DNA of 64,000 nt from Opitutaceae bacterium. GTDB lineage: Bacteria; Verrucomicrobiota; Verrucomicrobiia; Opitutales; Opitutaceae. Within the stretch, counting starts at the first letter, position 1. Every line of letters starts with the position of its first letter. Location of the stretch: positions 1-64,000 of the forward strand of contig JAIXWF010000001.1 of the NCBI GenBank assembly GCA_027482185.1, read 5' to 3'. Made by a program: the position numbers and the translations under genes. The notes under the pieces were generated by a model. The model saw only the letters and a program-made list of their open reading frames with translations. It made no database searches and was not told the DNA's origin. This document shows, one piece after another, positions 36,755 through 57,138 of the stretch.

Positions 36755-37153
36755 TCAGCCCGAAGGCGCGATCCCAGTGGAAGGCGGCGGCGCCATTGAC
36801 CTGACCGATAGGTTCACGATGAAGGGCTCGGCCGCATTGCTCTGAAGTTCATATTTTGCCGGAAGGCTGCGGAGCGAGTTGAGATGGAACTGCGCAATCG
36901 CCGGCATGAGCGTCGTGAGGAGCTTACCCCGTATTTCCACTTCGTGGTTGGCGAAGGAGAGCACCAGCCGGTCGTTTTCCCCATCACCCAAGTGGCGAGC
37001 ACACACGAAATGTGACCACGGCAACACCCACTGTTCGCCATCCGCGGCGAAGACCAACAAGGCCGGAACGGAGGCCTCCGCTGAATGGCACCCACTCTCT
37101 GCCCGCAGTTCTCCGGCGCGACGGTGATCGAGCGTTTCTTGCAGCGTGCTCAT
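36755..37153 (-). CDS. Hypothetical protein coupled to the relaxase
   Basis: The 132-residue product (MSTLQETLDHRRAGELRAESGCHSAEASVPALLVFAADGEQWVLPWSHFVCARHL...) has no named domain. A strand-rich middle (VLSFANHEVEIRGKLLTTLMPAI) suggests a small folded protein. Its start overlaps the relaxase stop by 4 bases (ATGA), so it is translationally coupled and probably a mobilization accessory. Confidence 0.65.
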   Translation of the reverse strand: MSTLQETLDHRRAGELRAESGCHSAEASVPALLVFAADGEQWVLPWSHFVCARHLGDGENDRLVLSFANHEVEIRGKLLTTLMPAIAQFHLNSLRSLPAKYELQSNAAEPFIVNLSVRSMAPPPSTGIAPSG

Positions 37154-39930: not shown

Positions 39931-39959
39931 CGTGGTGAATTCCGACTTGGCGGTTGTGA

Positions 39960-40062
39960 TTTATGTAACGTAGCCACGTTACTTTTTGCCTGAGACACAG
40001 GACCCCTTAACGCTGCGCGTAAGGTTTCGATTTCCGTAAGCGCGACACGGCTCGTGTCGCAC
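39960..40062. other. Candidate origin of transfer (oriT) region
   Basis: Just upstream of the relaxase start lie two perfect hairpins. GTAACGT-AGCC-ACGTTAC (39965-39982) is followed by TTTTT. GCGACACG-GCT-CGTGTCGC (40042-40060) has an 8-bp stem. Between them is a stretch with CTTAACGCTGCGCGTAAG. Inverted repeats beside the relaxase gene are what MobF origins of transfer look like; the nick site is not identifiable by eye. Confidence 0.45.
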
Positions 40063-40107
40063 CATGCGCAGCGTCAACCGGCGCGACCTGCGCCGGAGTA
40101 GAATGGC

Positions 40108-40729
40108 GGCAGTCGCCGGTCTGCCAGACTCGCCGTCTTCCGACGACCACGAAGACCCGCCGCGCTACGCTGTTTCGGCGTGCCCTCGTCGAGATCTCGG
40201 AGCGAGCGGCACGCGCGCGGAGACATGGGGCCGCTCCTCGCTTCGCCAGCCGTCCGCCTCCGCTGGCCGCCACCTGGCGAGCACGCTGCGGCGGGCGGCT
40301 CGGCTTCGCTCGTCGCGTCCCCAAGACTCCGCGCCGGCCGACGATCGTGGCGCACCTGCGCCAAGCGAGGAAATGGGAACACCCAACGGGCATTCGCTCC
40401 CCAAACGATTGTGGTGGTTACCTTCGGAGGAGCATCAACCCCGACGCCGACGTGGGCGACATACGACGCGGGCCACGAAGTAAATACGGGCAGTCGCCGC
40501 CTTGGCAGCTGCGCCGATTTCCGACCGCCACGAAAACGCGCCGCGCTACGCTGTTTCGGCGCGCCCTCGTGGAGGTCCGGGCCATCCGGCACGCGCGCGG
40601 CGACTTGGGCCCGCTCTTCGCTTCGCCGACCGTCCGCCTTCGCTTGCCGCCATTGGGCGAGCATGCTGCTGCTCCTGGCTCGGCTGCGCTCCTCGCGTCC
40701 CCAAGACGCCGCGCCGGCCGACTTTGTCG
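40108..40729. repeat. Imperfect direct duplication of about 240 bp
   Basis: Two diverged copies, about 40108-40347 and 40489-40729, share blocks such as CCGCGCTACGCTGTTTCGGCG and the closing CGCGTCCCCAAGAC(T/G)CCGCGCC. The spacer holds about 140 bp of unrelated DNA. Long open frames run across both copies on both strands but have Arg/Ser/Pro-rich shadow composition, so it is treated as non-coding. Confidence 0.75.
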
Positions 40730-41126
40730 ATACCTCCGCCCCCTTGCGAAGATCCGAACACGAGGCCACCCCGATGCCCAATCTGCGGTGCGCACCTTCC
40801 GTGATTGCAGCGCTCGTAGTGTCCAAGTCTGACGGCGGAACCGGTCGCTGAACCGATTTCAGACCGGCATCCGCGAACACCGTCGCGAGGGTAAAGAATT
40901 CTCCGCCTCCGCTCGCTGCCCTATTCTGTCACACCCGCCATGGAGTTCTCGCTTCGCTGCGCTCCTCCATCCCGTCCTTCGGCCTTCCCCCTCGCGAGGA
41001 GCACCAGGGCTCCTCGCTCGGCGGCCTCGGCCGTGGCTGGGTGTGCCTTCAAGGGCCAGCGCGCGGAGTGCGCCTTGATATCCGGGCAAGCCAGCCCGAA
41101 CAGGGTGCGCACGGGCGCATGGCAAC
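40730..41126. other. Gene-free stretch before the radC gene
   Basis: Only low-quality frames were seen. The part 40937-41085 is rich in CTCGCT/CTTCG blocks and resembles the duplicated DNA in style without being a clear third copy. No RNA gene was recognised. Confidence 0.5.
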
Positions 41127-41858
41127 ATGCAGCAATCCACGTTAGACCTCTACGATCAGCACCGCCCGACGCCCCTCATCGCCTGCGGCGAGCAACCGCA
41201 GCAACGGCTGGACGCTTTCGGGGTCGGCGCACTCAGCGACACGGAATTGATCGCCCTCATGCTAAATGCCGGAACACGAGGACAGTCGGTTCTCGGAATC
41301 GCCTCACAATTGATTACCCAAGCCGGGTCCATCGCCGGACTCGCCAGTTGGCAGCCCGAAGATTTTCGCCGGCTGAAAGGCATCGGTCCGACCAAGGCAC
41401 GCCAATTGGCCGCACTCATTGAAATCGGCCGACGGATGATCAAACAGCCGGTCGGACAAGCGCCCATGCTCAATCGCCCGGACTTGATCGCGGCCTACAT
41501 GGCTCCGTATGCACGAGGCTTGGAGGTCGAAAAGTTTTGGGTAGTCTGCCTAAATCGGAAAAACCGGCTGAAGAAATTGGTGGAAGTTACTTCGGGCACC
41601 GCCACCGCCGCACTGGCGCATCCGCGCGAGGTCTTTCGCACTGCGGTCCAGCATGGGGCGAGCGCCATCGCCTGTATCCACAATCACCCGTCAGGCGATC
41701 CCGCGCCATCGAGCGCAGACGTGCAGGTCACCCGCCAACTCCGGGAGGCGGCCCGAGCCCTGGACATCGCGTTGCTGGATCACGTGGTGATTGGAGCCGC
41801 CGCATCCGACCCTGCTGGCGTGGGCTACTACAGCTTCCGCAGTGCGGGACTTCTCTAG
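41127..41858 (+). CDS. radC: RadC/JAB-domain protein
   Basis: The 243-residue product has the UPF0758/RadC layout. An N-terminal helix-hairpin-helix region (LIALMLNAGTRGQSV, LKGIGPTKARQLAALIEIGRR) precedes a JAB/MPN metalloprotease-like domain with E in LEVEKFWVV, H185-x-H187 in CIHNHPSGD, S189 and D191. RadC-like proteins are common passengers of mobile elements, where an anti-restriction or integration role has been proposed but not established. It stands alone on the plus strand. Confidence 0.9.
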   Translation: MQQSTLDLYDQHRPTPLIACGEQPQQRLDAFGVGALSDTELIALMLNAGTRGQSVLGIASQLITQAGSIAGLASWQPEDFRRLKGIGPTKARQLAALIEIGRRMIKQPVGQAPMLNRPDLIAAYMAPYARGLEVEKFWVVCLNRKNRLKKLVEVTSGTATAALAHPREVFRTAVQHGASAIACIHNHPSGDPAPSSADVQVTRQLREAARALDIALLDHVVIGAAASDPAGVGYYSFRSAGLL

Positions 41859-41987: not shown

Positions 41988-42959
41988 CTATCTCTTCACA
42001 CCCGAGATGGTGAGCCCAATTTCTAGCTTCAAGGCATTCGCCGCGTCGGCTCCACCGCTTAATTTTTCGAGCACGCGCCTACATACGACCAACGCAACAT
42101 CATCCTCTCCCTTGCTACGTGTAACCTGCCAGACAGTAGCCCGCGAAGGTTCGATGTTTCGTGCCACGATGCTTGGCACCATGGCCCATCCACGCCCGTT
42201 CATGACACTACCCGCGGCTTGAGGATGTGTTTCGCAGATGACACTTGGTTCGAGGTTAACCAAGGCCTTGTCGGCCATTGCGTCGGCCAATATTTCACGG
42301 AAGGCGGCCCAGCTTGAACCCTGCTGAATGAGTGGATGCCCGGTTTTAGTGGCCCACGAAATTGCTTCTCGCAGCGAGCCAACCGCGGGACACCCCGACA
42401 TCACCACACATTGCCCGACACCGGGAAATATCCGCACCTGATCGAGGCCAACTTCGTCTGCAAGGTCTGCTACACGCAGTAGTCCGAAGTGAACACGGCC
42501 TTCCCGAATAGCATCGCAGAGAGCGTGCGTTCGCAGGTTCGCAACCTGCCATCGCGCCGCCGCTCCTGCTTTCGGCCATCTGGCGAGGGTGGGAATGACA
42601 ACGCTTTGGAGCCACGTATCTCCCGCTCCGAAGACCCATGTCGTTTCCTGACTCGTGGCATTGCTCTTACGGCTGAGCTCCAGCAGCAACAGCCGAACCT
42701 CCCCCGCAATTCGGCGACCGAGTTCACTGGGTTGCGTTGCGTTACCCACACGCCTCGTGAGCCGACCGATTCCGAGGGCTTTTTCCAGGCGATCCAACTT
42801 TTGGCGATAGTTCACCGCATGGCTCGTTGATCCGGCGGATAGTGCTGCAACACTCTCGCTTCCAGTCAGTTCCAGTAGGGTTATGAGCTGACCGACGGAG
42901 ACGCCTTCTCGCGATCCTTTCCGCGCCCATTTGATCAGCTCCGAATCATTGGTGAGCAT
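41988..42959 (-). CDS. LysR-type transcriptional regulator
   Basis: The 323-residue product has a LysR-like N-terminal helix-turn-helix (LITLLELTGSESVAALSAGSTSHAVNYRQKLDRLEKALGIGRLTRR) and an effector-binding half (HFGLLRVADLADEVGLDQVRIFP...GHPLIQQGSSWAAFREI). It is divergent from the dynamin gene, whose restriction-modification operon it may control; the intergenic distance is about 110 bp. The frame stays open upstream to 43097, but the domain begins at ATG 42959. Its N-terminal module is somewhat unlike classic LysR, so the family label is moderately sure. Confidence 0.75.
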   Translation of the reverse strand: MLTNDSELIKWARKGSREGVSVGQLITLLELTGSESVAALSAGSTSHAVNYRQKLDRLEKALGIGRLTRRVGNATQPSELGRRIAGEVRLLLLELSRKSNATSQETTWVFGAGDTWLQSVVIPTLARWPKAGAAARWQVANLRTHALCDAIREGRVHFGLLRVADLADEVGLDQVRIFPGVGQCVVMSGCPAVGSLREAISWATKTGHPLIQQGSSWAAFREILADAMADKALVNLEPSVICETHPQAAGSVMNGRGWAMVPSIVARNIEPSRATVWQVTRSKGEDDVALVVCRRVLEKLSGGADAANALKLEIGLTISGVKR

Positions 42960-43067: not shown

Positions 43068-45803
43068 ATGAGCGTCCTCCTCGTCCACGAACTTCACGAA
43101 GCGCGCGACCGCCTTCTTCTCCTCCGCGACAAGCTACTTGCCGCCCGTCAGCAGGAAATTCCCTCCTACCGCGACTATCTCGACGAGCAGGTCGCCGTCC
43201 TAAACAAGGCACTCGACGACGCCCGCATCCCACCTTCCTACCGCGTGGCTGTTGTTGGTCGCTTCAAGGTCGGCAAGTCTTCGTTCATCAACAAACTGAC
43301 CGAAGAGAAGAATTTGGCCGCCGTTGACGCCAACCCCGAGACCGCGGCTATCTCGATTTTTCGGTTCAGCGAAGAAACACGCGCGGAAATCGAATTCGTC
43401 ACGGCAGAGGAGTGGCAGAATTTGACGGCGACTCACGCGGAGAACCCCAAGGATCCCGAGGCCAAGCGTTTTGCCGGTTTTATGGGATTTAACGCCCGCC
43501 CCGCCGCCAAGGACAAGGACGGCAAGGAAATCCCGCGCACCACGGTCGATCTCCACGGCCTTGCCGCACAGTGGATCAAGCCCGGCGGCCTCACCCACAC
43601 CATTCGCGCCCAGAACTGGAAATCCAGAGACGGCAAACAAGCTTTCCGTAGAGAGCTTCGCCAGTTCACCTCCAGCCAGGAGCCGCTTCATTACCTCGTC
43701 AAAAAGTTGACGATTCACGCCCCCATTCCACTGCTCCGGGATCACATCGAACTCATCGATACGCCCGGCCTCGACGATACCGAGCGCTTCCGCGTGCAGT
43801 TGACCGAGGAGCTGGTCCGCGAAGTGGATGCCATTCTCTATCTCACCACCAGCGGTGCTGCCTACGGTCAGACCGACAAAGAATTTATCATCCGCCAGCT
43901 ACGCCAGCAGCAGCTTCGCCACCTTCAGCTCATCGTCACCAAGGCCGACCACACCTACGCCGACACGCTGCGCGACGCCGAGGAAAAGGACGAGTCACCG
44001 CCCACCTTTGCGGAGTTTCGTGCCGCGCAAGTTTCTCGCGTGCGCGGCGAGGTGCGCCAGACGCTCGACGAACTCCTCACCTCGAATGAAACCAAGGAAG
44101 ATGAGGGCTATTATTTCATCGAACAGTTGGACAGCATTGGCGTTCACCTCATTTCAACCAAGCTCCACGACGAGGGGAAAATCGAGGAGGGCGGTATCGA
44201 TGCCGTTCGCGAGGGGCTTTACCGCGTGCTTTCGACGAGCCGCCGCTTTGCCGATTCGCGGCGGATTCTGGTCGAGCGTCTAGATCTGGCACTGAACTCC
44301 ATCCGCGCCCGGTTCTCCGACCGTATCTCAGCCATCGAGAAGGACTACGACCCGCAGCGAGTGAAAGCGGAGATTGAGTCCATCAAAACTGCCCTCTCCA
44401 AGCGACTGGAGGTTTTCGAGGATGAAGCCGGCACTCTGGTTCAACAGCTTGAGCAGCAGCAAGCCGCCTTCCATAAAACCCTCCCACTCAAGCTGGACGC
44501 CATTTGCTACGCCGCCCGCGAGGTCATCGGCTCCAACGAGCTGGACGACGTGGGCACGCATTGGAAATCACGACGGCACGGCAACTGGGGATACCTCAAG
44601 GATCTTCAGGGCCGTGTCGCCGACCGTGTCTTTCCCCGGGTTGCATCCAACCTGAAGGAACTTCGCGACCAATTCTCCACGTTCGTCGGCCTCTTCAGCA
44701 CCCGCGTGGATTCACTCCAGACAAAAATTCGCGAGCTGGAAACCGAACACCACATCTCGGGCCTGGAGACCCTTTCCCTCGCGGACAAGCAGCGGCCTCT
44801 GTTCGAGAAACTGGAAAAGGAGTTCGACAGCATGTCCGAAGCGGCGCGCGACAGCGTGCTTGAGCACCTCGACGATTTCGTCACCGAGCAGGTTCTCACT
44901 CGCCTCGACGTGGCCAAGACCAGCGTCGCCACTGTATGGGGTAAGGGCACGACGACACGCCAGACCGGCGAGGTGCGGAAGTTCTATGACCAAGTGAAGA
45001 CCCTCCTCGCCGACGCCTTGCGTGAGCATCTGACTGAGCGCACCGAGGAGTTTGCCGCCGCCATCGTGACGCACGCCCAATCTTTGGCGCCCCGTCTCCG
45101 CGCCGAGAGTCTCGGCGTCATTGAGCAGCGTATTGCCGCGATCGAATCGAGTCTCACCCTGCAGAGCGCCGAGGAGAAACAGCGCGTGCTCGCCTACCTC
45201 CAAGGGATGCACGGCCTCGTTTCCAACTTCGCCGCCCGGCCCGAATCCATCACCGCCCACACGTCCGCCGCCGATACCGTGCTCGATGCAGGCGATGCCC
45301 TCGGCGTCCCTGATTCCCGGCCCGTCATGCTTCAACCCACCCGTTACGAGATCGTCGAAGGCTCCACCGGCTACACTTACGAACGCATCTTCCGCCCCTA
45401 CATTGACACCGCCGAAGAGATAATTGTCGAAGATCCGTACATCCGAAAAATCTACCAGTTCGATAACTTCGCGCGCTTCTGTGCCCTCGCCCTCCGTTCC
45501 GGCGTGGTGCGCAAGATCGCTCTCCGTAGCTATTGCGATTTCGGCGAGGACATCGACGAGGTGCGCTCGCGTCTCGAAACGCTCAGTCGCGATCTCAAGT
45601 CGCGCGGTGTCGAGCTCACCTACAACTACGAGTTCCGCGGCCACGACCGCGAAGTCCGTTTCAGCAACGGTTGGCGCGTCAACATCGGTCGCGGCCTCGA
45701 CATTTACTATCCGCCCGAATCCTGGGCCTCCATCGAAGCTTCCGATTTCAGTCTTCGCCGGTGCAAAGGCACCAAGGTTGAAGCTGCCCGCATCGCGCCC
45801 TAA
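43068..45803 (+). CDS. Dynamin-like GTPase with MIT_C/PLD-like C-terminal domain
   Basis: The 911-residue protein has an N-terminal helical bundle and a dynamin-type GTPase: G1 GRFKVGKS (64-71), G3 DTPG (231-234) and G4 TKAD (291-294). A long helical stalk-like region (about 430-760) follows. The C-terminal 140-150 residues (TGYTYERIFRPYIDTAEEIIVEDPYIRKIYQFDNFARFCALAL...GRGLDIYYPPESW) resemble the MIT_C domain of eukaryotic MITD1, a PLD-fold membrane-binding module. It opens an operon with hsdM (20 bp gap). It probably binds membrane or nucleic acid during phage response. ATG at 43068 is used; 43017 is an alternative. Confidence 0.83.
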   Translation: MSVLLVHELHEARDRLLLLRDKLLAARQQEIPSYRDYLDEQVAVLNKALDDARIPPSYRVAVVGRFKVGKSSFINKLTEEKNLAAVDANPETAAISIFRFSEETRAEIEFVTAEEWQNLTATHAENPKDPEAKRFAGFMGFNARPAAKDKDGKEIPRTTVDLHGLAAQWIKPGGLTHTIRAQNWKSRDGKQAFRRELRQFTSSQEPLHYLVKKLTIHAPIPLLRDHIELIDTPGLDDTERFRVQLTEELVREVDAILYLTTSGAAYGQTDKEFIIRQLRQQQLRHLQLIVTKADHTYADTLRDAEEKDESPPTFAEFRAAQVSRVRGEVRQTLDELLTSNETKEDEGYYFIEQLDSIGVHLISTKLHDEGKIEEGGIDAVREGLYRVLSTSRRFADSRRILVERLDLALNSIRARFSDRISAIEKDYDPQRVKAEIESIKTALSKRLEVFEDEAGTLVQQLEQQQAAFHKTLPLKLDAICYAAREVIGSNELDDVGTHWKSRRHGNWGYLKDLQGRVADRVFPRVASNLKELRDQFSTFVGLFSTRVDSLQTKIRELETEHHISGLETLSLADKQRPLFEKLEKEFDSMSEAARDSVLEHLDDFVTEQVLTRLDVAKTSVATVWGKGTTTRQTGEVRKFYDQVKTLLADALREHLTERTEEFAAAIVTHAQSLAPRLRAESLGVIEQRIAAIESSLTLQSAEEKQRVLAYLQGMHGLVSNFAARPESITAHTSAADTVLDAGDALGVPDSRPVMLQPTRYEIVEGSTGYTYERIFRPYIDTAEEIIVEDPYIRKIYQFDNFARFCALALRSGVVRKIALRSYCDFGEDIDEVRSRLETLSRDLKSRGVELTYNYEFRGHDREVRFSNGWRVNIGRGLDIYYPPESWASIEASDFSLRRCKGTKVEAARIAP

Positions 45804-45823: not shown

Positions 45824-48475
45824 ATGCCCAAGCTCTCCCTCGCGAAGCTCGAACGCCACCTCTATAAAGCCGCAGACCGGCTTCGTCAGGAGGGCCTTGA
45901 TGCCGCCACCTACAAGGACTACATCTTCGGTATCCTTTTCCTGAAACGTTGCTCCGACGTCTTTGACGCCGAGCGCGAGAAGCTCGTCACGCGCAAAATC
46001 GAGAGTGGCATGTTGAAGGATGAGGCCGAAGAGGAATACGGCGAAGACCCTGATTTCTACGACGGCTTTTTTGTTCCCGAACGCGCGCGCTGGAGCTACC
46101 TGCAAGGAAAACTTCAAGACGCGACCGTGCAGTTCGGCCACGTGCTCGACACCGCCCTGCAAGCCCTCGCCGAAGCCAACACCGAAGCGCTCGAACACGT
46201 CCTCGACCACGTTCAGTTCATCCGCACTCAGAGCGGTAAACGCGTCATCTCCGACGAGGCTTGCAAGGCCCTTGTCCGCCACTTCTCCGCCTACCGCCTG
46301 CGCAACGAAGATTTCCAGTTCTCCGACCTCCTTGGCGCGGCCTACGAGTTTTTGATCAACATGTTTGCCGAGTCGGCCGGCAAGAAGGGCGGCGATTTCT
46401 ACACCCCGCGCGATGTGGTGCGCCTCATCGTGCGCATCCTAAATCCCCGCCCCGGCATGAGCATCTACGATCCCACCGTGGGCTCCGGCGGTATGCTCAT
46501 CATAAGCCGCGAATACGTGGAGCAGTGCGGGGGCGACCCCACCGACCTCCGCCTCTGCGGCCAGGTCAACGACGCCTCCGCTTGGTCGATCTGTCGGCTC
46601 AACATGCTGCTCCACGGCGTCACCGGGGCCGACATCCAACTCGCCGACACCCTCCTGCACCCTCGGCACAAGGACGGCGGCGACCTGGAACGCTTCCACC
46701 GCGTCATCGCCAATCCTCCCTTCTCCATGAACTACTCCACCGAGGAGATGGAGCATAAGGAGCGCTTCCGCTGGGGCTGGTGCCCCACCACCGGCAAGAA
46801 GGGCGACCTCATGTTTGCCCAGCACATGCTCTCCGTCTGTCGCGAGGATGGCATGGTCGCCACTGTCATGCCCCACGGCGTGCTCTTCCGTGGCGGCGAG
46901 GAGCGCAAGATTCGCCGCAAATGGCTGGAGGAGGATCTTATCGAGGCCGTCATCGGCTTGCCGCAAAATCTCTTCTACGGGGCCAGCATCCCGGCCTGCG
47001 TCATCGTCATGCGGCCCAACCGTTCCGGCCACGCCGCCAACCCCAACAAGCCCGAGGCCCGTCGCCAGCGCGTGCTCTTCATAAACGCTGACGCCGAGTT
47101 CTTCGCCGGTCGCGCGCAAAACTACCTCCGCCCCGAGCACGTCGAAAAGATCGTCACCACCTACGAGCGCTTCGCTGCCGTGGAGGCCTACGCCCAGGTC
47201 GTGCCCGTGGCCGAATTGCTCTCCGAGGCCAACGACGCCAATCTCAACATCCGCCGCTACGTAGACAACTCGCCCGCGCCCGAGCCGCACGATGTGCGCG
47301 CCCACCTGCTCGGCGGTGTGCCTGTGCGCGAGATCGAGTCCCGGCGGGCGCTCTTCTCCGCCCTCGGCTTCGACCCCGCCCGCGCCTTCACGCCCCGCGC
47401 CGGCGACGACCGCTACCGCGACTTCGCCCCCGCGCTCACCGACCGCGCCGCCATTCGCGCCTTGATCGAGACCGATCACGGCGTGCTCGCCCGTGCGGCC
47501 GTCCTGCGCGAGGCGCTCGCCGCGTGGTGGCGCGAGCACTCCGCCCGATTGGTCGAGCTGCCTGCCCGCCGCCAGCTTAACGCCGTGCGCACCGATCTGC
47601 TCCGCAGTTTTAACACCGCCCTCGCCCCGGTCGGCGTGCTCGACCACTACAAACTCGCGGGCGTCATCGCCACCTGGTGGACGGAGACGCTGCCCGACCT
47701 CAAGACGCTCATGGAAAACGGCTTTGCCGGCGTGATCGACGGCTGGGTGGATGCCATCGCCGACGCGCTGGAGGATGAAGACGCCGCCGGGGCCACCCTC
47801 GATCCCTTCACCCACAAGCTCACCCGTCGCGTCATGGCCGACTACCTCGACCAGATCGCCACCGCCAAGACCGACATCGCCCGTCTCAAGGGCGAGAAAG
47901 AGTCCTTTGAGCAAAGCAACCTTCCCGACGACCTCGACGAAGAGGAAGCCACCGAGTGGAACTACGCCAAGCACCTTGACGCCCGCGCCAAGGAGCTAAA
48001 ACGCGAGCACCGCGACGCGTTTAAGGACTCGGCCAAAGCCGAAAAAGCCGCCGCTAAGAAAGGCGCGTCTGAGGAAGCCATCGAACTGGCCGACTCGCTG
48101 CGCGCCGCCCTCGATCCGATCCGCCAAGAGATCGAGTCGCTGGATGCCAGCCTAGCGCCCTACGAACGAACAAAAACCCAGCTCGCCGAAGCCCGCGCCC
48201 GGTTCCGCTCACTGATCGAGCAATTCGTTTGGGAGCTAAAGACACGGTGCGGCGCGATGCCGGATGATGAAAAACGAACCGTGGTCTTGGGGCTTTTCGC
48301 CGACGATCTTTTTTCCGGTCTGACTGTTTCGCTGACCGAAAAACGCAAGTTACTCGAAAACTCCTTTGAGGTAATTTGGGACAAGTATTCGTGCACGTTG
48401 CTGAGCTTGCGCTCCGCGCGGGAACACCACGAAACGGAACTCGCGACTGCCCTCAATCGCCTCACCTACCTATGA
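45824..48475 (+). CDS. hsdM: Type I restriction-modification methyltransferase subunit HsdM
   Basis: The 883-residue product has the N-terminal HsdM bundle (LERHLYKAADRLRQEGLDAATYKDYIFGILFLKRCSDVF) and the N6-adenine methyltransferase core with DPTVGSGG (216-223, S-adenosylmethionine site) and NPPF (297-300, catalytic). It is much longer than classic HsdM (about 500 residues). The extra C-terminal 350 residues are acidic/helical, with a likely coiled coil (KTDIARLKGEKESFEQSNLPDDLDEEEATEWNYAKHL...), and may fuse an accessory scaffold. Its stop overlaps the hsdS start by 4 bases. Confidence 0.93.
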   Translation: MPKLSLAKLERHLYKAADRLRQEGLDAATYKDYIFGILFLKRCSDVFDAEREKLVTRKIESGMLKDEAEEEYGEDPDFYDGFFVPERARWSYLQGKLQDATVQFGHVLDTALQALAEANTEALEHVLDHVQFIRTQSGKRVISDEACKALVRHFSAYRLRNEDFQFSDLLGAAYEFLINMFAESAGKKGGDFYTPRDVVRLIVRILNPRPGMSIYDPTVGSGGMLIISREYVEQCGGDPTDLRLCGQVNDASAWSICRLNMLLHGVTGADIQLADTLLHPRHKDGGDLERFHRVIANPPFSMNYSTEEMEHKERFRWGWCPTTGKKGDLMFAQHMLSVCREDGMVATVMPHGVLFRGGEERKIRRKWLEEDLIEAVIGLPQNLFYGASIPACVIVMRPNRSGHAANPNKPEARRQRVLFINADAEFFAGRAQNYLRPEHVEKIVTTYERFAAVEAYAQVVPVAELLSEANDANLNIRRYVDNSPAPEPHDVRAHLLGGVPVREIESRRALFSALGFDPARAFTPRAGDDRYRDFAPALTDRAAIRALIETDHGVLARAAVLREALAAWWREHSARLVELPARRQLNAVRTDLLRSFNTALAPVGVLDHYKLAGVIATWWTETLPDLKTLMENGFAGVIDGWVDAIADALEDEDAAGATLDPFTHKLTRRVMADYLDQIATAKTDIARLKGEKESFEQSNLPDDLDEEEATEWNYAKHLDARAKELKREHRDAFKDSAKAEKAAAKKGASEEAIELADSLRAALDPIRQEIESLDASLAPYERTKTQLAEARARFRSLIEQFVWELKTRCGAMPDDEKRTVVLGLFADDLFSGLTVSLTEKRKLLENSFEVIWDKYSCTLLSLRSAREHHETELATALNRLTYL

Positions 48476-49734
48476 GCAACGTCGGCACCACTGCTTTTTC
48501 AGAACTCGCCGAGGTGAATCCGCGCCTGAGCCTTCAGACATACGGCGACGACATGCTCGTTTCATTCATCCCCATGTCCGACGTTTCCGAGGGCGGAAAA
48601 TGGACAGTTCACCAAGAACGGCGTCTTGGTGATGTGCGATTTGGCTACACGGCGTTCCTAGAATCCGACCTCCTCTTCGCAAAGATCACGCCGTGCATGG
48701 AAAACGGTAAGGGCGCGCACGCCGTCGGTCTGAAAAACGGAATTGGGTGCGGCTCGACCGAGTTCCATGTTTTACGCGCCAAGGGCGAAACCAGCGCCCG
48801 CTACCTGCATCACTGGCTACAAGCCCGGACGACGCGCGCAAAAGCGATTTCCTACATGGGCGGATCGGCCGGCCAACAACGCGTGCAGCCTCAGTTTTTC
48901 GACCGCTACCGCGTGCCGAAACTAAATCCAGCTGAGCAACGCCAAGCAGCCGCCGTGCTCGACCAAGCCGACGAGGCCATCGCCAAAACCGAGGCCGTGA
49001 TCGCGAAGCTGCGTCAGGTCCGCACCGGCCTGATCCACGACTTGCTAACCTGCGGCCTCGACGAAAACGGCCATCTCCGCGACCCCTTCGCCCATCCCGA
49101 GCAATTTCAGGAAACGGTCATGGGACTACGCCCTCGCGATTGGGAGATCGCGCCGATTGGCACCAAATGCGAAACCTACGCCGGAGGAACTCCGCCCCGT
49201 GGCAGCCCGGAATTTTTTGGCGGCAATGTCCCGTGGATCAAATCCGGCGAGGTAAATCAGGACGCTATCTCGACAACGGAAGAGACACTCTCGGAACGAG
49301 GCTTGGCCGTCAGCAGCGCCAAATGGATTGCCCCCGAAAATCCGCTGATGGCCATGTACGGTGCCACCGCTGGGCAAGTAAGTTGGTTGACCACTCGCGC
49401 CACGGCAAATCAGGCCGTATTGGCAATTATTCCGCGTAGCGATGACACGGTCGCCCGGTTCCTTTTCTGGATGCTCCGATTCGTTGCGCCTCAAATCATC
49501 ACCCTCGCGACCGGCTCAGGGCAGCCAAATTTGAGCAAGGGATTGATAGATAGAGCCCTCGTCGTGATTCCCCGGTCGCCAGACGAACAGCGGTCTATTG
49601 CCGCAAGAATTGACACCGCTGTCGCCATCGAAAAACCCGAAGCCGCGAATCTCGAAAAACTGATCCAACTAAAATCCGGCCTGATGGACGACCTCCTCAC
49701 CGGCCGCGTCCGCGTGCCCGCCACCACCATATGA
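48472..49734 (+). CDS. hsdS: Type I restriction-modification specificity subunit HsdS
   Basis: The 420-residue product contains two target-recognition domains, each followed by a conserved helix. The first half ends with NPAEQRQAAAVLDQADEAIAKTEAVIAKLRQVRTGLIHDLL, the second with SPDEQRSIAARIDTAVAIEKPEAANLEKLIQLKSGLMDDLLTG. The recognised DNA sequence would be bipartite. ATG at 48472 overlaps the hsdM stop, and its own stop overlaps the HEPN-gene start (ATGA). Confidence 0.93.
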   Translation: MSNVGTTAFSELAEVNPRLSLQTYGDDMLVSFIPMSDVSEGGKWTVHQERRLGDVRFGYTAFLESDLLFAKITPCMENGKGAHAVGLKNGIGCGSTEFHVLRAKGETSARYLHHWLQARTTRAKAISYMGGSAGQQRVQPQFFDRYRVPKLNPAEQRQAAAVLDQADEAIAKTEAVIAKLRQVRTGLIHDLLTCGLDENGHLRDPFAHPEQFQETVMGLRPRDWEIAPIGTKCETYAGGTPPRGSPEFFGGNVPWIKSGEVNQDAISTTEETLSERGLAVSSAKWIAPENPLMAMYGATAGQVSWLTTRATANQAVLAIIPRSDDTVARFLFWMLRFVAPQIITLATGSGQPNLSKGLIDRALVVIPRSPDEQRSIAARIDTAVAIEKPEAANLEKLIQLKSGLMDDLLTGRVRVPATTI

Positions 49735-51089
49735 CCACCACCGGCCTTTCCGATCTCGACCAGCTTGTTTTCTCCGTTCGCGACCGGGAGTCGTCGCGCC
49801 TCATCCAAGAGGCTGTCGCTGCATATCGGGGCGGTGCATTACGCTCCGCTATCATGTCGGTCTGGATCGCGGTCGCTTACGACATTATCGCGAAAGCGCG
49901 AGAACTCGCCGTTCAAGGGGAGGCGGTGCCAAAGGCATTTATCGCCAAGCTCGACGGAGCTATGACCGCCAAGGATATCAAAACGTTGATGGCAATTGAG
50001 GTCGATTTGTTGGTTACGGCGCGAGACGACTTTCAGTTCTTCGCCCCTCACGAATTTACCGATCTTGATCGGTTGAAAGATGACCGAAATCTCTGCGCGC
50101 ACCCCGCCTTTGTATCCGAGGACAACCTGTTTCAACCCGCCCCGGAACTTGTTCGTGCGCACATCGTGCATGCGATCAACCACCTCCTGCGACACGCGCC
50201 TCTCCAGGGGAAGAACGCCATCAACAGGATCGAAGCGGATCTTCTGAGTGCGTCATTCCCAACGGACCCAACAGAAATCGAAACTTTCCTGCGTCAGCGG
50301 TATCTCGACCGGGCAAAAGAGTCCTTGGTCGTTGTGCTGCTCAAGAGTTTGCTTGTCCGGCCCATCGGCGCAGATCACGCCAAGTATGTCGGCAAGGAAC
50401 GCCAAATTGCGGCGGCACTGGCGGCCGTGGGTCGCGCCAAGCCTGTCATTTATGATCGAGAGTTGCCTGCATTCGCTTTAATTAAAGCCAACAGCGTAGG
50501 CGAGGACCGGATTCTCGCATTCGTCCGCATGATAGCCGCCGAGCCGCGCCTCTGGGAGTGGATAGGAAGCGCAGCGCAGATTCGCATCACCAAGCTGGTA
50601 ACGGAAGCAAAGCCCGAACACATCAAAGCCTTTGATCTGTTCGATGGCTTAGACGTGGCCCCTTTGAAGAATATAATCTGGGGAAAATTCCAAAGTCAGT
50701 CTCCTGACTGGCAGCAAAGCGTCATCGCGGATCACCCGCGTCCGGAGTTTGCGCCATTCGCCGCAGCTCTTTACGCCCGCGCTGCTAGCTTCCGGCATGC
50801 TGAATCATTGGGCGCGGCGGTTGTGCTGCCTCTGACGAAATATTTCACTGCTGCCCAAGTGGGCGAAATACTTTCGGCCGTTGAAACAAATAGCCAAATC
50901 AAGACAGCTTCGGGTTCACCAGCGATCATTGAACAACTCTACGACGATACCCAGCATCTACTTGCCCAGACGGGTGAGCGTTGGCGTCAGTTTATCGCGG
51001 AAGTGGTCAAGGGCAACGAGCGCGACTATATGTATGCATACCCCGGAATACGCGAGCGCCTCATCAAGGCTGGAATCATGAAACGCTGA
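49731..51089 (+). CDS. HEPN-domain protein inside the R-M operon
   Basis: The 452-residue product begins with a helical domain holding the R-x4-H motif of HEPN ribonucleases (R119-NLCA-H124 in LKDDRNLCAHPAF), preceded by a helix with MSVWIAVAYDIIAKAREL. The remaining 300 residues are helical and unrecognised. HEPN proteins often cleave RNA as effectors or toxins of defence systems. It is coupled to hsdS by a 4-base overlap and sits 8 bp before the next gene, so it is an integral operon member. RNase activity is inference from the motif. Confidence 0.8.
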   Translation: MTTTGLSDLDQLVFSVRDRESSRLIQEAVAAYRGGALRSAIMSVWIAVAYDIIAKARELAVQGEAVPKAFIAKLDGAMTAKDIKTLMAIEVDLLVTARDDFQFFAPHEFTDLDRLKDDRNLCAHPAFVSEDNLFQPAPELVRAHIVHAINHLLRHAPLQGKNAINRIEADLLSASFPTDPTEIETFLRQRYLDRAKESLVVVLLKSLLVRPIGADHAKYVGKERQIAAALAAVGRAKPVIYDRELPAFALIKANSVGEDRILAFVRMIAAEPRLWEWIGSAAQIRITKLVTEAKPEHIKAFDLFDGLDVAPLKNIIWGKFQSQSPDWQQSVIADHPRPEFAPFAAALYARAASFRHAESLGAAVVLPLTKYFTAAQVGEILSAVETNSQIKTASGSPAIIEQLYDDTQHLLAQTGERWRQFIAEVVKGNERDYMYAYPGIRERLIKAGIMKR

Positions 51090-51097
51090 CACAACCC

Positions 51098-52795
51098 GTG
51101 ACGACCGCCCCCGAACAGTTTCAGACTTGGATCAATGTCCCAGAGGGCACGCGGCTGGAATTCAAGACTGCCAGCAACAACTACCACTTCGAGGAGCTGG
51201 TGGATTATTGCGTGGCCCTCGCCAACGAGGGTGGCGGGGTGATCATCCTCGGTGTCACCGACCGGCGACCGCGTCAGGTCGTCGGCACCGCCGCCTTTGC
51301 CGAGCCGGGCCGCACTGAAGCCGGGCTCCATCAGCGCCTCGGCCATCGCATCCCGGTCGAGGAGTTTTTCCACGAGGGCAAACGCCTGCTCATCGTCCAT
51401 GTGCCCGCACGCCTGCCAGGCACGGCGTGGCACCACAAGGGCCGCTTCCTCAAGCGGGCGGGCGACGAACTCACCGTGTTGAGCGGGGACGAGCTGCGGA
51501 CGATTTTCGCCGAGACCGGGCCGGATTTCTCCGCTGAAATTTGTCCTGCCGCCAAGCTGGCCGATCTCGATCCGGCAGCGGTGGCCGAATTCCGCACCCG
51601 CTGGGCGCGCAAAGCCGCCAATCCGCGCATCGCCGCGTGGGACGACCGCCAGACACTCGCCGATGCCGAGCTGTTGATCGAGGAACGGCTCACCTACGCG
51701 GCCTTGATCCTTTTTGGCGCCCGCGCCGCGCTCGGACGGCACCTCGCCCAGGCCGAAATCGTCTTCGAATATCGCTCCAGCGAGGCCTCGGGGCCGGCTG
51801 CCGACCGCACCGAGTTCCGTGAAGGATTTTTCCTCTGCCACGATGCGCTTTGGCAAAAGATTAACCTGCGCAACGACCGGCAGAGTTATCAGGACGGGCT
51901 GTTCCGCTACGACATCCCTACCTTCGACGAGACTGCCGTCCGCGAGGCGCTGCTCAATGCCGTCGCCCATCGCGACTATCGCTTAGGCGGGTCGGTGTTT
52001 GTGCGGCAATACACCCGCCGTCTGGAGTTGGTCAGCCCCGGCGGCTTCCCACCCGGTATCACGGCAGAAAACATCGTGGACCAGCAAAACCCGCGCAACC
52101 GCCGCCTGGCCGAGGCGCTGGCGAAGTGCGGCCTGATTGAGCGTTCCGGGCAGGGCATGAATTTGATGGTCGAGCGGGCCATCCGGCAGAGCAAGGCGTT
52201 GCCCAGCTTCGTCGGCACCGCCGCACACGAGGTGCGGCTTACGCTGGAGGGCACGGTGCGCGATCCGGCTTTCATTCGTTACTTGGAACGTTTGGGGGAG
52301 GAGCGGCTGGCTACGTTTTCTACTCACGATTTTCTCGCCTTGGCTGCGATTGCCGCCGACACGCCGCTCACCGACGCGCTGCGCGAAAGCCTTCCCCGTC
52401 TGGTCGAGGTGGGGGCTATCGAGTCGCAGGGACGAGGACGCGGCGTGCGTTACCTGCTCTCCCGCGCCCTGCACGCCACTCTGGGCAAAAAAGGCACCTA
52501 CACCCGCAAGCGCGGCCTCGATCACGAGACGAACAAGGCGCTTTTGATGAAGCACCTTTCGGACAATCAGGAAGAGGGCGCGCCGATGGCCGAGCTAGTC
52601 CAGGTGCTCCCGGCACTTTCTCGGGCGCATATCAAACGGCTACTCCAAGAGCTATCGGCGGCGGGTTTGGTAAATTTGCAGGGCATCACCCGGTCGGCGC
52701 GCTGGTTCGCCCAGACAGGGAAGCCGCCCATTGGCTCACTAGCCACCAATGAGCCAATCAATGAACCAAAACCAAATGAGTCTCAGTCTACGTAA
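51098..52795 (+). CDS. AlbA_2/Schlafen-like ATP-binding protein
   Basis: The 565-residue product has an N-terminal Schlafen AlbA_2 domain (EFKTASNNYHFEELVDYCVALANEGGGVIILGVTD). A helicase-like/HATPase_c_4 ATP-binding region follows (REALLNAVAHRDYRLGGSVFV...NRRLAEALAKCGLIERSGQGMNLM), and winged-helix repeats form the C-terminus. Such proteins are frequent neighbours of type I restriction genes and may be regulators or effectors. GTG at 51098 is the start; it follows the HEPN gene by 8 bp. Confidence 0.87.
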   Translation: MTTAPEQFQTWINVPEGTRLEFKTASNNYHFEELVDYCVALANEGGGVIILGVTDRRPRQVVGTAAFAEPGRTEAGLHQRLGHRIPVEEFFHEGKRLLIVHVPARLPGTAWHHKGRFLKRAGDELTVLSGDELRTIFAETGPDFSAEICPAAKLADLDPAAVAEFRTRWARKAANPRIAAWDDRQTLADAELLIEERLTYAALILFGARAALGRHLAQAEIVFEYRSSEASGPAADRTEFREGFFLCHDALWQKINLRNDRQSYQDGLFRYDIPTFDETAVREALLNAVAHRDYRLGGSVFVRQYTRRLELVSPGGFPPGITAENIVDQQNPRNRRLAEALAKCGLIERSGQGMNLMVERAIRQSKALPSFVGTAAHEVRLTLEGTVRDPAFIRYLERLGEERLATFSTHDFLALAAIAADTPLTDALRESLPRLVEVGAIESQGRGRGVRYLLSRALHATLGKKGTYTRKRGLDHETNKALLMKHLSDNQEEGAPMAELVQVLPALSRAHIKRLLQELSAAGLVNLQGITRSARWFAQTGKPPIGSLATNEPINEPKPNESQST

Positions 52796-52954: not shown

Positions 52955-55900
52955 ATGAGCAAAACCAAATGGGAATACGACGTGGTGGAGCGCCCCTTTT
53001 GCGAGCAGCTCAAGGCGATGGGGTGGCAGTGGATCGAGGGCGACGTCGATGTCCCTGAGCTGACCGAGCGCGCGAACTTCCGGGAGGTCATGCTCCGGGG
53101 CCGTCTCGCTTCCTCCCTCCGCAAGCTCAACTTGCGCAATGGTCAGCCGTGGCTCGACGACGACCGCATCCACCGAATCATCCAGGAACTCGTCCAGGCT
53201 CCGGGTCACGCGGTCATGGAGATCAACGAGGCCACGACCAAACTCCTCCTCACCGGCACTGTCACCGATGGCGTGGCGGGCTGGGACTCCGGTCGCCAGC
53301 AACCGATCCGGTTTATTGATTTCGAGCATCCCGAGAACAACGACTTCCTCGTCATCAATCAGTTCAAGGTTTCCCTGAGCAGCGACCGGGGCCATGTTAT
53401 CCCCGACGCCGTGCTTTTCGTGAACGGCATCCCTCTCGTCGTCGCCGAATTCAAGAGCCCGTCGATTCAGAACCCCATCGAAGAGGCCATCAACCAGCTT
53501 CTTCGCTACTCCAACCAACGCCGCGAACTCTACCCGGAGAACTATCAGGAAAACGAAGGCGTTGAGCGTCTGTTCCACACGAATCAGCTCCTCATCGCCA
53601 GCGACCTTTTCGAGGCGCGCGCGGCTACCGTCGGCGCTCCGCCCGAGGCTTACCTTGAATGGGCAGATACCAGCCCCGTGCCCTTGTCCACCGTCGCGCA
53701 AGAAGTCGGTCTCATCCCCGCCACGCCCGAGGTGGTGGAGGCCGCCAAAGAGTTGACCGAGTCCGGACCGGAGGAGTCGGGCCGCATGGGCACGCCGTTG
53801 TTTTTCCGCAAGCCCGAGCAACGTCCTACGACCTTGCAAAGTCAGCAGGTCATGGTCGCCGGCATGTTGCGCCCGGCGCACCTGCTCGACCTCGTCCGCA
53901 ACTTCACTGTGTTTCAGCAGGTGGATGGCAAGACCCGCAAAGTCGTCGCCCGCTACCAACAATTCCGCGCCATCCACAAGGCAACGAAGCGGCTCGCCGA
54001 GGGCCGCACCCGCCCGCAAGGCGCGTCCAAGGACGAACGCGGCGGCATCATCTGGCACACCCAAGGATCGGGCAAGAGCCTGAGCATGATCTTCCTCGTC
54101 CGCAAAATGCGGATGCTGGAGGGGCTCAAGCAATTCAAGGTCGTCGTCGTCACGGACCGCACCGACCTGGAAGGGCAGCTTCGCGACACCGCCCGTCTGA
54201 GTGGAGAAACCCTGCGTCCCAACGATGACGACAAGCGCGCCCGTGAATCCTCGAGCAAGCGCACGCAGCGCATTCTCTCCGAGCCCACACCGGACATCGT
54301 TTTCGCGATGCTCCAAAAATACCAAGACGCATCCAAGCGCGACAACACCGAGAGAGTGTCGATGACCGTAGTTCGAAAAGAACGGAAGCCGGGCAAAGAT
54401 CAGCGCATCGAGGAGAAGGAAATCACGCTGGAGGAAACGATCCAGTTCGAGGACTTCGCCGAATTGAACGGCTCTGAAAAAATCCTCGTGCTCGTTGACG
54501 AGGCGCATCGCGGACACACCCGTTCGCTGCATCGCAATCTGCGCAAGGCCCTGCCCAACGCCGCGATCATCGGCTTCACCGGCACGCCTATCCTCAGCAA
54601 GGAGAAAGGTGAGACTCGCGACATCTTCGGCGACTTCATCGACAAATACATCCTGCAAGACGCGGAACTCGACGGTGCCACCGTGCCCATCCTCTACGAA
54701 GGCCGCACCGCCGACGGCATGGTCAAGGATGCCGATGACCTCGACGAGCTGTTCGAGGACATGTTTAAGGACTACTCGCCGGAAGAACTGGCCGTCATCA
54801 AGGCCAAGTATGCCACCGAGAGCGACGTGCTCGCCGCACCGCTTCTGATCGAGAAGAAGGCTCGCGACATGATCCGCCACTTCGCGTCCGTGGTGCTCCC
54901 TTCCGGCTACAAAGCCCAGGTCGTGGCCACGAGTCGCGAGGCCGCAATCACCTATCAGGAAAAGCTCAGCCAAGCCCGCGACGCGTTGGTAACTGAGATC
55001 GAAGCGCTGCCGGCAACCTACGACAATCTGACCGACGAGCAGATCGACGCCCTGCCAGCTGCGACGAAGTTACTGGTTCGTGTCCGGCCAATCTTGCCGC
55101 GAATCAAAGCGCTGGAAATCGGCGCGGTCTTCTCCGGTGACCACAACGATCCGGAGTCATGGCGTGAATGGTCTGACCGCGACAAACAGGAAGACCGCAT
55201 TCGCCGCTTCAAAAAGAAATTCGGCCTCACCCGCACGGAAAAAGCCGACCCGATCAGCATCCTAGTCGTGAAAAACATGCTCCTCACCGGCTTCGATGCC
55301 CCGGTGGAGCAAGTGCTTTATCTCGACCGTAAGATCGTCGCGCACGATCTGTTGCAGGCTATCGCCCGCGTGAACCGCACCAGTGGCAAAAAACGTTGCG
55401 GCTACGTGGTGGATTATGTCGGCGTCGCGCGCCATCTTCACGAAGCACTCTCCGACTACGATGAAGAGGACACACGCGGTGCGCTCATCGACATCTCGAT
55501 CGAGCTTCCCAAGCTGCTTGACCGCCGGGCCAGGGCGGTCGCGGTCTTTACCGACCTAGGCATCACCGATTTGAAGGCCCAAGTCCCGGCCTGCGTAGAT
55601 CTCTTGGCCGACCTCAAAATCCGCGCCGACTTCATCAACAAGGTGCGGGCTTTCTACGACCAGCTCAACATGCTGGAGCACCGTCCTGAAGTCCCCGGCG
55701 ATGTTTTTCGCGACGCCAAACTTCTCGGATTCATCAACAAGGTGGCCGCCAATCTCTACCGCGACCCTGCGCTCAACCTTGTAGGCGTAGGCGAGAAGGT
55801 GAAGGCGCTCATCAACGCGCACATCTCCGCGCGAGGCGTCGATCCCAAGATACCGCCGACCACGATCACGGACGCCGAATTCGAGAAGGTGTTGCAGGCG

Positions 55901-56422
55901 CAGACCAGCAGCCGTGCCCGTGCCGCGCAGATGCAGCACGCGGCCCGTTTCCACATCATCGGTTTCATCAACCAAAACCCGTCGTTTGCGCGAAAGATGA
56001 GCGAGAAGCTGGAGGAAATCCTCCAACGCTTCAAAGACGACGCCGATGCCTTGGAAAAGGCCTTGCGGGCGTTTGTCGCCGACCTGCGCAAAGGCGACAG
56101 CAACGACTTCCCCGATCTCGACCCCAAGGCTCAGGTGCCCTTTGTGCGACTGCTCCTCGATGAATGCGGCAAGAGCCGGACACTGGACGACGCCCAAACC
56201 AAGAAACTCATCGGCCTCGCAATTGAAATAGTTGAGCGAGTCCAACAGGAAATCCGCAAAATCGGATTCTGGAAAAACGACACCATGCGCGAGCAACTCA
56301 CCAAGACACTCGTTCGCGATCTCGATAAGTCAGGCCTCTGCCCGCCCAAGAAAGAGCGCGAGATCGCCCAGCGCCTAGTCGCTCTCGCCAAAGAGAATCA
56401 CGAATACCTCAGCAAATCGTGA
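52955..56422 (+). CDS. hsdR: Type I restriction endonuclease subunit HsdR
   Basis: The 1155-residue product has an N-terminal nuclease domain with PD-(D/E)XK residues D151 (IPDAVLF) and E165-F-K167 (VVAEFKSP). Two RecA-like translocase domains follow, with Walker A HTQGSGKS, DEAH in LVDEAHRG, and motif VI-like HDLLQAIARVNRT. A long C-terminal helical part would contact the methylase. It should translocate and cut unmodified DNA. A 159-bp gap with no terminator precedes it; its stop overlaps the next start (GTGA). Confidence 0.94.
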   Translation: MSKTKWEYDVVERPFCEQLKAMGWQWIEGDVDVPELTERANFREVMLRGRLASSLRKLNLRNGQPWLDDDRIHRIIQELVQAPGHAVMEINEATTKLLLTGTVTDGVAGWDSGRQQPIRFIDFEHPENNDFLVINQFKVSLSSDRGHVIPDAVLFVNGIPLVVAEFKSPSIQNPIEEAINQLLRYSNQRRELYPENYQENEGVERLFHTNQLLIASDLFEARAATVGAPPEAYLEWADTSPVPLSTVAQEVGLIPATPEVVEAAKELTESGPEESGRMGTPLFFRKPEQRPTTLQSQQVMVAGMLRPAHLLDLVRNFTVFQQVDGKTRKVVARYQQFRAIHKATKRLAEGRTRPQGASKDERGGIIWHTQGSGKSLSMIFLVRKMRMLEGLKQFKVVVVTDRTDLEGQLRDTARLSGETLRPNDDDKRARESSSKRTQRILSEPTPDIVFAMLQKYQDASKRDNTERVSMTVVRKERKPGKDQRIEEKEITLEETIQFEDFAELNGSEKILVLVDEAHRGHTRSLHRNLRKALPNAAIIGFTGTPILSKEKGETRDIFGDFIDKYILQDAELDGATVPILYEGRTADGMVKDADDLDELFEDMFKDYSPEELAVIKAKYATESDVLAAPLLIEKKARDMIRHFASVVLPSGYKAQVVATSREAAITYQEKLSQARDALVTEIEALPATYDNLTDEQIDALPAATKLLVRVRPILPRIKALEIGAVFSGDHNDPESWREWSDRDKQEDRIRRFKKKFGLTRTEKADPISILVVKNMLLTGFDAPVEQVLYLDRKIVAHDLLQAIARVNRTSGKKRCGYVVDYVGVARHLHEALSDYDEEDTRGALIDISIELPKLLDRRARAVAVFTDLGITDLKAQVPACVDLLADLKIRADFINKVRAFYDQLNMLEHRPEVPGDVFRDAKLLGFINKVAANLYRDPALNLVGVGEKVKALINAHISARGVDPKIPPTTITDAEFEKVLQAQTSSRARAAQMQHAARFHIIGFINQNPSFARKMSEKLEEILQRFKDDADALEKALRAFVADLRKGDSNDFPDLDPKAQVPFVRLLLDECGKSRTLDDAQTKKLIGLAIEIVERVQQEIRKIGFWKNDTMREQLTKTLVRDLDKSGLCPPKKEREIAQRLVALAKENHEYLSKS

Positions 56423-57138
56423 ACGACACGCTCACAGTCGAAGGATTGGACTTCGAGATTCGTCGCAGCAGTCGGCGCAAGACGCTCGGACTCACCGTGG
56501 GCCGGGCGAGTGAGTTGATCGTTCATGCGCCGGAGGTCACCGCTACCGGTGAACTGGAGCGTTGGGTGCGACGCAAGTTGCTCTGGGTGCATCGTAAGCT
56601 CGCGCTCAAGAGGGAGTCTGCGCCCCGCGAGACGCCGCCCGAGTTTGTGTCGGGCCAGGTCATTCACTTCCTCGGCCGCAGTTATCGGCTAAAGGTGAAG
56701 ACTGCTCAGAACGAACCGCTGGTTTACGCCGGAGACGAATTCCACCTTTCCCGCAGCCATGAAGCCGACGCGGAAAGCCTGTTCCAAGCGTGGTTCACGC
56801 ACGAGGGCACGGACTGGCTCGCTCGACGCGTGGCGTATTGGGCACCGCGAGTGGGTGCGACGCCCAAGAGAATCGTGGTCGGCAATCTTGGCTTTCGTTG
56901 GGGCTCATGCAGCAAAGGAGGCCGGCTAAACTTCAACTGGCGAGTGCTTCAGCTCCCGGTCGGACTCGCGGATTACGTGCTCGTTCACGAAATGATCCAT
57001 CTCCGCGAACGCCACCATGGGCCTGCGTTCTGGGAAATGTTCGGCCGGGCGATGCCCGACTACAAACAGCGGCAAGAACGCTTACGTTTAAGGGCGGGTG
57101 ACTTTCTTGTGTTCGACATGGTGAAGCCCGCCGCATGA
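56419..57138 (+). CDS. YgjP/SprT-type zinc metallopeptidase (DUF45) of the R-M operon
   Basis: The 239-residue protein has the YgjP-like layout with NLGFRWGSCSKGGRLNFNWRVLQLPVGLADYVLVHEMIHLRERHHGPAFW. This holds the HExxH zinc motif (H190-E-M-I-H194) and a third His about 6 residues on. Such genes commonly follow hsdR in type I operons; a role in processing or turnover of HsdR has been suggested, but no role is proven. GTG at 56419 overlaps the hsdR stop by 4 bases. Confidence 0.9.
   Translation: MNDTLTVEGLDFEIRRSSRRKTLGLTVGRASELIVHAPEVTATGELERWVRRKLLWVHRKLALKRESAPRETPPEFVSGQVIHFLGRSYRLKVKTAQNEPLVYAGDEFHLSRSHEADAESLFQAWFTHEGTDWLARRVAYWAPRVGATPKRIVVGNLGFRWGSCSKGGRLNFNWRVLQLPVGLADYVLVHEMIHLRERHHGPAFWEMFGRAMPDYKQRQERLRLRAGDFLVFDMVKPAA

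Follow-up and report, generated by a model that had tools for sequence, protein, structure and literature searches.

Here, we describe a family of bacterial dynamin-like proteins (DLPs) that carry a C-terminal MIT_C domain and whose genes, as comparison with control stretches and other dynamin loci supports, are linked non-randomly with DNA-methylation defence. One member is encoded by the first gene of a type I restriction-modification (R-M) operon in the window, i.e., the whole stretch of 64,000 nucleotides analysed here, and several relatives stand beside quite different methyltransferases. What surprises most in this picture is that a dynamin occurs inside BREX operons.

The dynamin-MIT_C protein and its operon

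The gene runs from an ATG at 43068 to a stop codon ending at 45803 and is followed after 20 bp by the ATG of hsdM at 45824 (Table 1). The start at 43068 was chosen over an upstream ATG at 42972 because it agrees with the N-termini of the relatives, which begin MSMLLVHELHEARDR... in the sequence comparison. Pfam matched Dynamin_N at residues 60-292 (4e-21) and MIT_C at residues 768-906 (2.8e-41), the latter over profile positions 1-140 of 142 and with 141.2 bits against the full-length profile (PF16565, curated cut-off 25). All four motifs that we take to be G1-G4 of a bacterial dynamin-like GTPase are present. The AF2 model, computed from 7 sequences (mean pLDDT 69.3, pTM 0.40), consists of the GTPase, a PLD-like end and, between them, helices at 377-426, 429-497, 510-560, 571-624 and 629-723, and thus contains, at moderate confidence, the long helical neck/trunk expected after the GTPase. 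Its top Foldseek matches were CjDLP1/2, SynDLP and BDLP, and the MITD1 chains 4a5z_A, 4a5z_B and 2ymb_A were matched with a TM score by target of 0.84-0.86 (2.7 A, 152 columns), while 2ymb_C and 2ymb_D, aligned across ~240 columns, reached 0.57-0.58. The C-terminus alone also found MITD1 in the PDB by sequence (4a5z, 1.7e-30; 2ymb, 3.7e-30), and the stretch HDRExRFxNGWxxxIGRGLD is common to the window protein and human MITD1. The preliminary description of this gene, which had read it as a dynamin GTPase with all motifs, a long stalk and an MITD1-like MIT_C domain within residues 760-911, standing first in the operon directly before hsdM, was therefore correct on each of these points. In a fold search among viral proteins, generic dynamins only were matched at E <1e-3, plus one weak uncharacterised phage protein. 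No transmembrane segment or long hydrophobic stretch was found by hydropathy (best 19-residue mean 1.1); the protein may be soluble, with GTP-dependent membrane binding or remodelling as a candidate function only.

Table 1 Features of the dynamin-MIT_C gene and of the operon that it opens, in window positions.
Feature	Position	Strand	Basis and remarks
Dynamin-like GTPase with C-terminal MIT_C, 911 aa	43068..45803	+	ORF reading, Pfam, PDB sequence matches, Foldseek
Dynamin_N GTPase domain	43245..43943	+	Pfam; G1 GRFKVGKS, G2 PETAA, G3 DTPG, G4 TKAD
Conserved stalk-hairpin loop HWKSRRHGNWGY, residues 498-509	44559..44594	+	AF2 model and 10-member alignment
MIT_C (PLD-fold) domain, residues 768-906	45369..45785	+	Pfam, PDB match, alignment; H859-x-R861-x4-S866 replaces HxKx4D
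hsdM, type I DNA methyltransferase, 20 bp after the dynamin gene	45824..48475	+	Pfam, PADLOC
hsdS, specificity subunit	48472..49734	+	Methylase_S; start picked by reading (mechanical ORF start 48376)
PD-T7-3-like protein	49731..51089	+	PADLOC 2.3e-32
Schlafen AlbA_2 and RecG-C-like (HATPase_c_4) protein	50981..52795	+	Pfam; start uncertain
hsdR, type I restriction subunit	52955..56422	+	HSDR_N, SWI2_SNF2, TIGR00348
YgjP-like metallopeptidase, closing the operon	56419..57138	+	Pfam; same place in 4/4 plasmid relatives inspected

The operon has the order DLP-hsdM-hsdS-PD-T7-3-like-AlbA_2/HATPase-hsdR-YgjP and, with hsdM, hsdS and hsdR together, is a type I R-M operon. The assignment of hsdM is based on N6_Mtase and HsdM_N, both over their Pfam cut-offs, and on PADLOC MTase_I (8.6e-258), its score against NCBIfam TIGR00497 (195 bits) lying under the cut-off of 242.75; hsdR scored 427 bits against TIGR00348, over the cut-off. 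Massilia BrxA/B/C, PglX, PglZ and BrxL had no match in the window at E 1e-6. Between hsdS and hsdR stand the PD-T7-3-like and AlbA_2/HATPase_c_4 proteins, and a PD-T7-3-like stretch flanks a related Hoyosella hsd operon on the opposite strand (L137 5158-5730). At E 1e-100, 27 plasmid records were matched, and the four plasmid relatives inspected among them share the order hsdM-hsdS-(others)-hsdR-SprT/YgjP, with hsdM split into two annotated genes in 2/4 and an HNH endonuclease gene 12 bp 5' of hsdM in 1/4.

On the other side, the dynamin gene is preceded by a divergent gene (41988-42956, minus strand, start picked by reading) for a protein with a LysR substrate-binding domain, in which Pfam detected no HTH_1; it is a possible regulator of the operon. 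The RptR type was dropped as a model for this gene, RptR being described in the accessible text of PMC12255303 as a small repressor with a single domain. Farther upstream, the region around 35223-41858 encodes a TrwB-type coupling ATPase, a TrwC relaxase (2.2e-81) and RadC, which suggests a mobile element, and two direct-repeat pairs of 89 and 136 nt (82-85% identical, spacing ~380 bp) lie at 40108-40722. Downstream of the operon, the protein encoded at 59566-60753 (plus strand) shows a weak resemblance, with scores far under cut-off, to ThcB4 of Thoeris III and to a TIR reverse transcriptase.

A rare family with conserved GTPase and stalk

We recognised at least ten family loci: the window, L012 (a Thiodictyon plasmid; a match in genome G939 with the same coordinates was counted once), L016-L021 (among the matches listed in a pattern-based scan), L128 (genome G840) and L143 (genome G1505). 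The family is rare: with the centre genome included each time, some genomes recurring between sets and few candidates scored per genome in most sets, matches covering both GTPase and stalk occurred in 1/387 genomes of the window's phylum and in 1/399, 3/210, 1/395, 1/132, 1/250 and 2/94 genomes of further sets. Any match at all was obtained in 9/387 genomes of the phylum, seven of the others being to MIT_C only and one to the GTPase only, and in 17/210 of the 210-genome set. No relatives were found in viral contigs with two peptide patterns, in phage records by tblastn with the L021 protein, or in E. coli genomes by DNA-level blastn, which reaches close relatives only.

The members fall into two clades at ~30% identity (window, L016, L017, L143 and L128 versus L012, L018, L019, L020 and L021). 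G1 (GxFKxGKS), G2 (PETAA) and G3 (DTPG) are kept in all ten, and four members have TKxD as G4, the other six TQxD. Across the ten members 112 positions are invariant; they lie in the GTPase and the stalk, an indication that both parts are under selection. Among the conserved sites is a basic-aromatic loop, H498-W499-x-x-R502-R503-x-G505-x-W507-G508, which is invariant in 10/10 members and which the AF2 model places where one long predicted helix turns back into the next. In dynamins, the membrane-contact tip sits at the turn between two long stalk helices. MIT_C is intact in 8/10 loci; L020 lacks it, and an insertion (9286-10530) with a Mutator-family transposase (Pfam, 3.1e-91) breaks it up in L017.

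Neighbourhoods of the family loci

At six of the ten loci (window, L143/L145, L019, L021, L128 and L016), the dynamin gene reads in the same direction as a defence locus that includes a methyltransferase; five kinds of defence locus are represented when the type I sets, which belong to two subfamilies, are taken separately. In Massilia (L021), brxA-brxB-brxC-DLP-pglX lie on one strand with spacings of ~40-46 bp before the dynamin gene (two GTG starts are possible) and 127 bp after it; beyond pglX follow a GmrSD-type gene, others, pglZ and a BrxL gene ending in a Lon domain, and all six of brxA, brxB, brxC, pglX, pglZ and brxL are present in L021/L096. The stretch from pglX to pglZ (L096 8215-14177) encodes the GmrSD-type protein (also matched as PADLOC Orf5/HEC-06); an HSP70-like protein is encoded there too, along with two more for which no firm match was obtained. 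The Thauera locus (L019) has the same order brxA-brxB-brxC-DLP-pglX as far as the contig end, inside pglX, so that the placement between brxC and pglX occurs in two genera. The idea that the dynamin replaces BrxL fails in Massilia, since the locus there also encodes a BrxL, one with a Lon_C domain.

Elsewhere, a DUF1156 methyltransferase gene (cut by the end of the 8.8-kb contig) and a PLD_Helicase gene lie upstream on the same strand in L128, the helicase ~0.6 kb before the dynamin. L016 contains an HKD-Snf2 helicase, a fusion of a type IIG-like methyltransferase with AbiEi, then AbiEii, the DLP and PDC-S68, and L143/L145 encode on one strand HsdR (EcoEI_R_C, HSDR_N), HsdM, HsdS, others (one NA37-like), AbiEi, AbiEii, the DLP and PDC-S68, with hsdS ~6 kb upstream of the dynamin. 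The order AbiEii, dynamin-MIT_C, PDC-S68 (RecD-like, ~1210 aa) is thus kept in L016 (7942-15524) and L143 (5027-12631) beside different methyltransferases and with RepB/ParB-like genes nearby, which suggests a portable cassette. L017 has a helicase only, on the opposite strand and ~5-6 kb off. For L012, L018 and L020, no R-M-like gene was seen among the neighbours annotated or scanned (part of the ORFs). A TIR protein is encoded ~11 kb from the dynamin gene in L012, and a HigB toxin gene directly precedes it in L018.

The preliminary description had joined the dynamin to DNA restriction through its place before hsdM. A survey of this linkage gave hsdM adjacency in 0/9 other family loci and a dynamin at 0/7 relatives of the window's hsdM, within the 13-19 kb taken around each, and dynamin-hsdM as a conserved pair was rejected; what stood of the claim is the broader link with methylation defence. 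For the latter, we used Hsd, BREX, IIG and PLD-helicase proteins, drawn largely from the family loci, as a query set. In leave-one-out comparison, 6/10 family loci were matched (window, L016, L017, L019, L128 and L143), three of them (L016, L017 and L128) through a helicase alone, and L021 was matched through L019, the two belonging to one BREX lineage and so not being independent in the counts. Three of the queries are relatives of the window's own hsd genes, and the window was matched also by the HsdM of L145. L012, L018 and L020 were unmatched within 10 kb. As a control, six of the same genomes supplied 56 stretches, which were taken at even spacing in G1505 and at contig starts in the other five and are hence not truly random; 3/56 were matched, two of these by a helicase only at E near 1e-7 (Fisher p 1.6e-4 for 6/10 and 1.6e-5 for 7/10). 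Other dynamin loci, mostly from Campylobacterota and 3-22.6 kb long (51/74 at least 15 kb), gave 0/74. Part of the signal may reflect the clustering of defence islands, because the comparison was with arbitrary stretches and not with other defence genes.

These counts bear on the strongest alternative, that the gene is a self-standing dynamin defence or housekeeping gene, which shares islands only, does no work with its neighbours and stands before hsdM by chance. The three loci without an R-M-like neighbour, the lack of hsdM adjacency and the seven hsdM relatives without a dynamin agree with it; the close brxC-DLP-pglX placement in two genera and the excess of 6/10 over 3/56 do not, and we consider it unlikely, although it keeps some weight.

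MIT_C as membrane binder or DNase

MIT_C also forms the end of one BrxL type, its best-known bacterial setting in the profile libraries used, and is therefore a defence module. PADLOC matched the end of the window protein to positions 531-694 of 698 of its BrxL model, and 21 plasmid records were matched by MIT_C alone, with brxL annotated under the match in 16/21. MIT_C also ends a Paenarthrobacter plasmid protein of 349 aa (L015 9635-10684), by annotation neither BrxL nor dynamin. In a tree of MIT_C domains, with long branches and support of 46/62, no firm single clade of the dynamin copies emerged.

Our alignment of the domain comprised 36 bacterial rows (35 different), seven from dynamins and 29 mostly from BrxL-sized frames with partly scanned N-termini. 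H859, R861, G868, R875, G876 and D878 are invariant in 36/36 rows. The phospholipase D-type nuclease motif HxKx4D is not present in the window protein, which has HxRx4S; at the position of the Asp, 29 rows keep D, 5 (the window among them) have S and 2 have N, and MITD1 has N. The loss of this Asp to Ser speaks against catalysis by the window copy. By bits, one BrxL copy matched MITD1 best (138.8), followed by L016 (129.5), the window (109.4) and L021 (49.9).

Two readings of the domain are available. Hadders 2012 is said to be the primary paper on PI(4,5)P2 binding by MITD1, and MITD1 is listed as a PI(4,5)P2 binder in the accessible text of PMC9776629. According to the accessible text of Rakesh and Krishnan 2026 (PMC12839542), whose main text as seen there contains neither 'GTPase' nor 'dynamin', BrxL ends in an HKD-endoDNase, with a K-to-R exchange (HRD), in 1030/2913 Type-1 BREX taxa with BrxL. 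From position and motif, we infer that this endoDNase is the same domain as MIT_C. Because MIT_C is taken for a membrane binder in MITD1 and, apparently, for a DNase in BrxL, it cannot by itself decide between membrane and DNA as the target.

A further alternative is accordingly that MIT_C is a DNA-acting HKD/HRD nuclease, which the dynamin part would assemble on phage DNA as a GTP-driven nuclease effector; apart from the target, it overlaps the effector explanation given below. The match to the C-terminal part of the BrxL model, the agreement of the HRD form with H-x-R-x4-D and the four invariant residues H859, R861, R875 and D878 are in its favour, tempered by a triad that is not kept and by a measured nuclease activity of the domain not being found in the accessible text of PMC12839542. 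We regard this alternative as improbable, slightly more so than the stand-alone gene.

Proposed role

A third alternative, in which the dynamin belongs to the type I enzyme as a genuine subunit or regulates it, e.g., by setting restriction according to membrane state, would fit the gene's first place 20 bp before hsdM and a scan without a promoter-like plus-strand match near the junction, and is very improbable given seven related hsd loci without a dynamin and relatives that sit with quite different machinery.

We propose instead that the dynamin-MIT_C family supplies methylation-based, R-M-like loci with an accessory (backup) effector that is swapped between systems and has a membrane-directed mechanism, and give this reading as a whole an even chance. 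The step of an accessory defence effector is by itself probable. By a small margin, we favour the membrane over DNA as the target of MIT_C; taken singly, the membrane falls a little short of an even chance, and DNA is a somewhat less likely target. Upon infection, GTP-driven self-assembly would concentrate the protein, and MIT_C would bind a phosphate-rich surface, most likely anionic membrane by analogy with MITD1. The membrane could thereby be stabilised or lysis delayed, as with B. subtilis DynA, while the neighbouring system would attack unmethylated DNA. Intact motifs, the long stalk with its invariant loop, MIT_C and the repeated finding of family genes at BREX, type I and other methyltransferase loci are consistent with the effector reading. 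Against it stand L012, L018 and L020, where no R-M-like neighbour was seen, the missing MIT_C of L020 and the interrupted one of L017. Lipid binding, DNA binding and phage protection by the window dynamin are predicted roles that it may have.

A more far-reaching idea, which we consider doubtful, is that MIT_C serves as an exchangeable recruitment module of methylation-based immunity, carried by the BrxL motor or by a dynamin, that the dynamin form, as a GTPase arm, couples the sensing of unmethylated DNA to the membrane, and that MITD1, the ESCRT cofactor of eukaryotes, acquired its PLD domain out of the bacterial defence pool.

If true, the effector reading adds a dynamin to BREX and restriction loci, systems that are thought of as DNA-acting, and suggests an additional, so far undescribed layer of methylation-based anti-virus defences. 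It would also offer a handle on the role of BrxL's MIT_C end, for which two incompatible readings (membrane binder and DNase) now exist. Among the publication matches listed, with most subscription papers and all preprints outside the scope, none describes a dynamin-MIT_C protein, a dynamin in BREX or a link between MITD1 and BrxL.

Comparison with known systems

The window protein shares the GTPase motifs and long helical stalk of BDLP, CjDLP1/2 and SynDLP, its best Foldseek matches, and differs from bacterial DLPs in being encoded by a single gene, in having no long hydrophobic segment, and in its added MIT_C and methyltransferase-defence context. It resembles the anti-phage dynamins Eleos (LeoA/LeoBC) and DynA, the latter presumably a member of the same bacterial dynamin-like family, in placing a dynamin in defence. 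Eleos, which we take to consist of two paired Leo dynamins, is different in that only parts of the window GTPase region match the LeoA/LeoBC models (NCBIfam LeoA, 14.7 bits, cut-off 325) and that no second dynamin over the cut-off, and thus no LeoA + LeoBC pair, was found in the window's genome. DynA of B. subtilis, the nearest precedent for the role proposed here, protects against phage by delaying lysis, according to the accessible text of PMC8844932.

With BrxL that ends in MIT_C, the window protein shares this domain at 38-47% identity to the nearer and 25-31% to the farther BrxL-sized relatives, a dynamin GTPase and stalk taking the place of the AAA+ core; in the Massilia BREX operon, a dynamin-MIT_C gene coexists with brxL, whose product has a Lon_C domain. 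The likeness to human MITD1, a cell-division protein and ESCRT-III cofactor, lies in the MIT_C (PLD) fold and the common stretch given above, and the two proteins differ in what accompanies that domain, an MIT domain in MITD1 and a dynamin in the protein described here.
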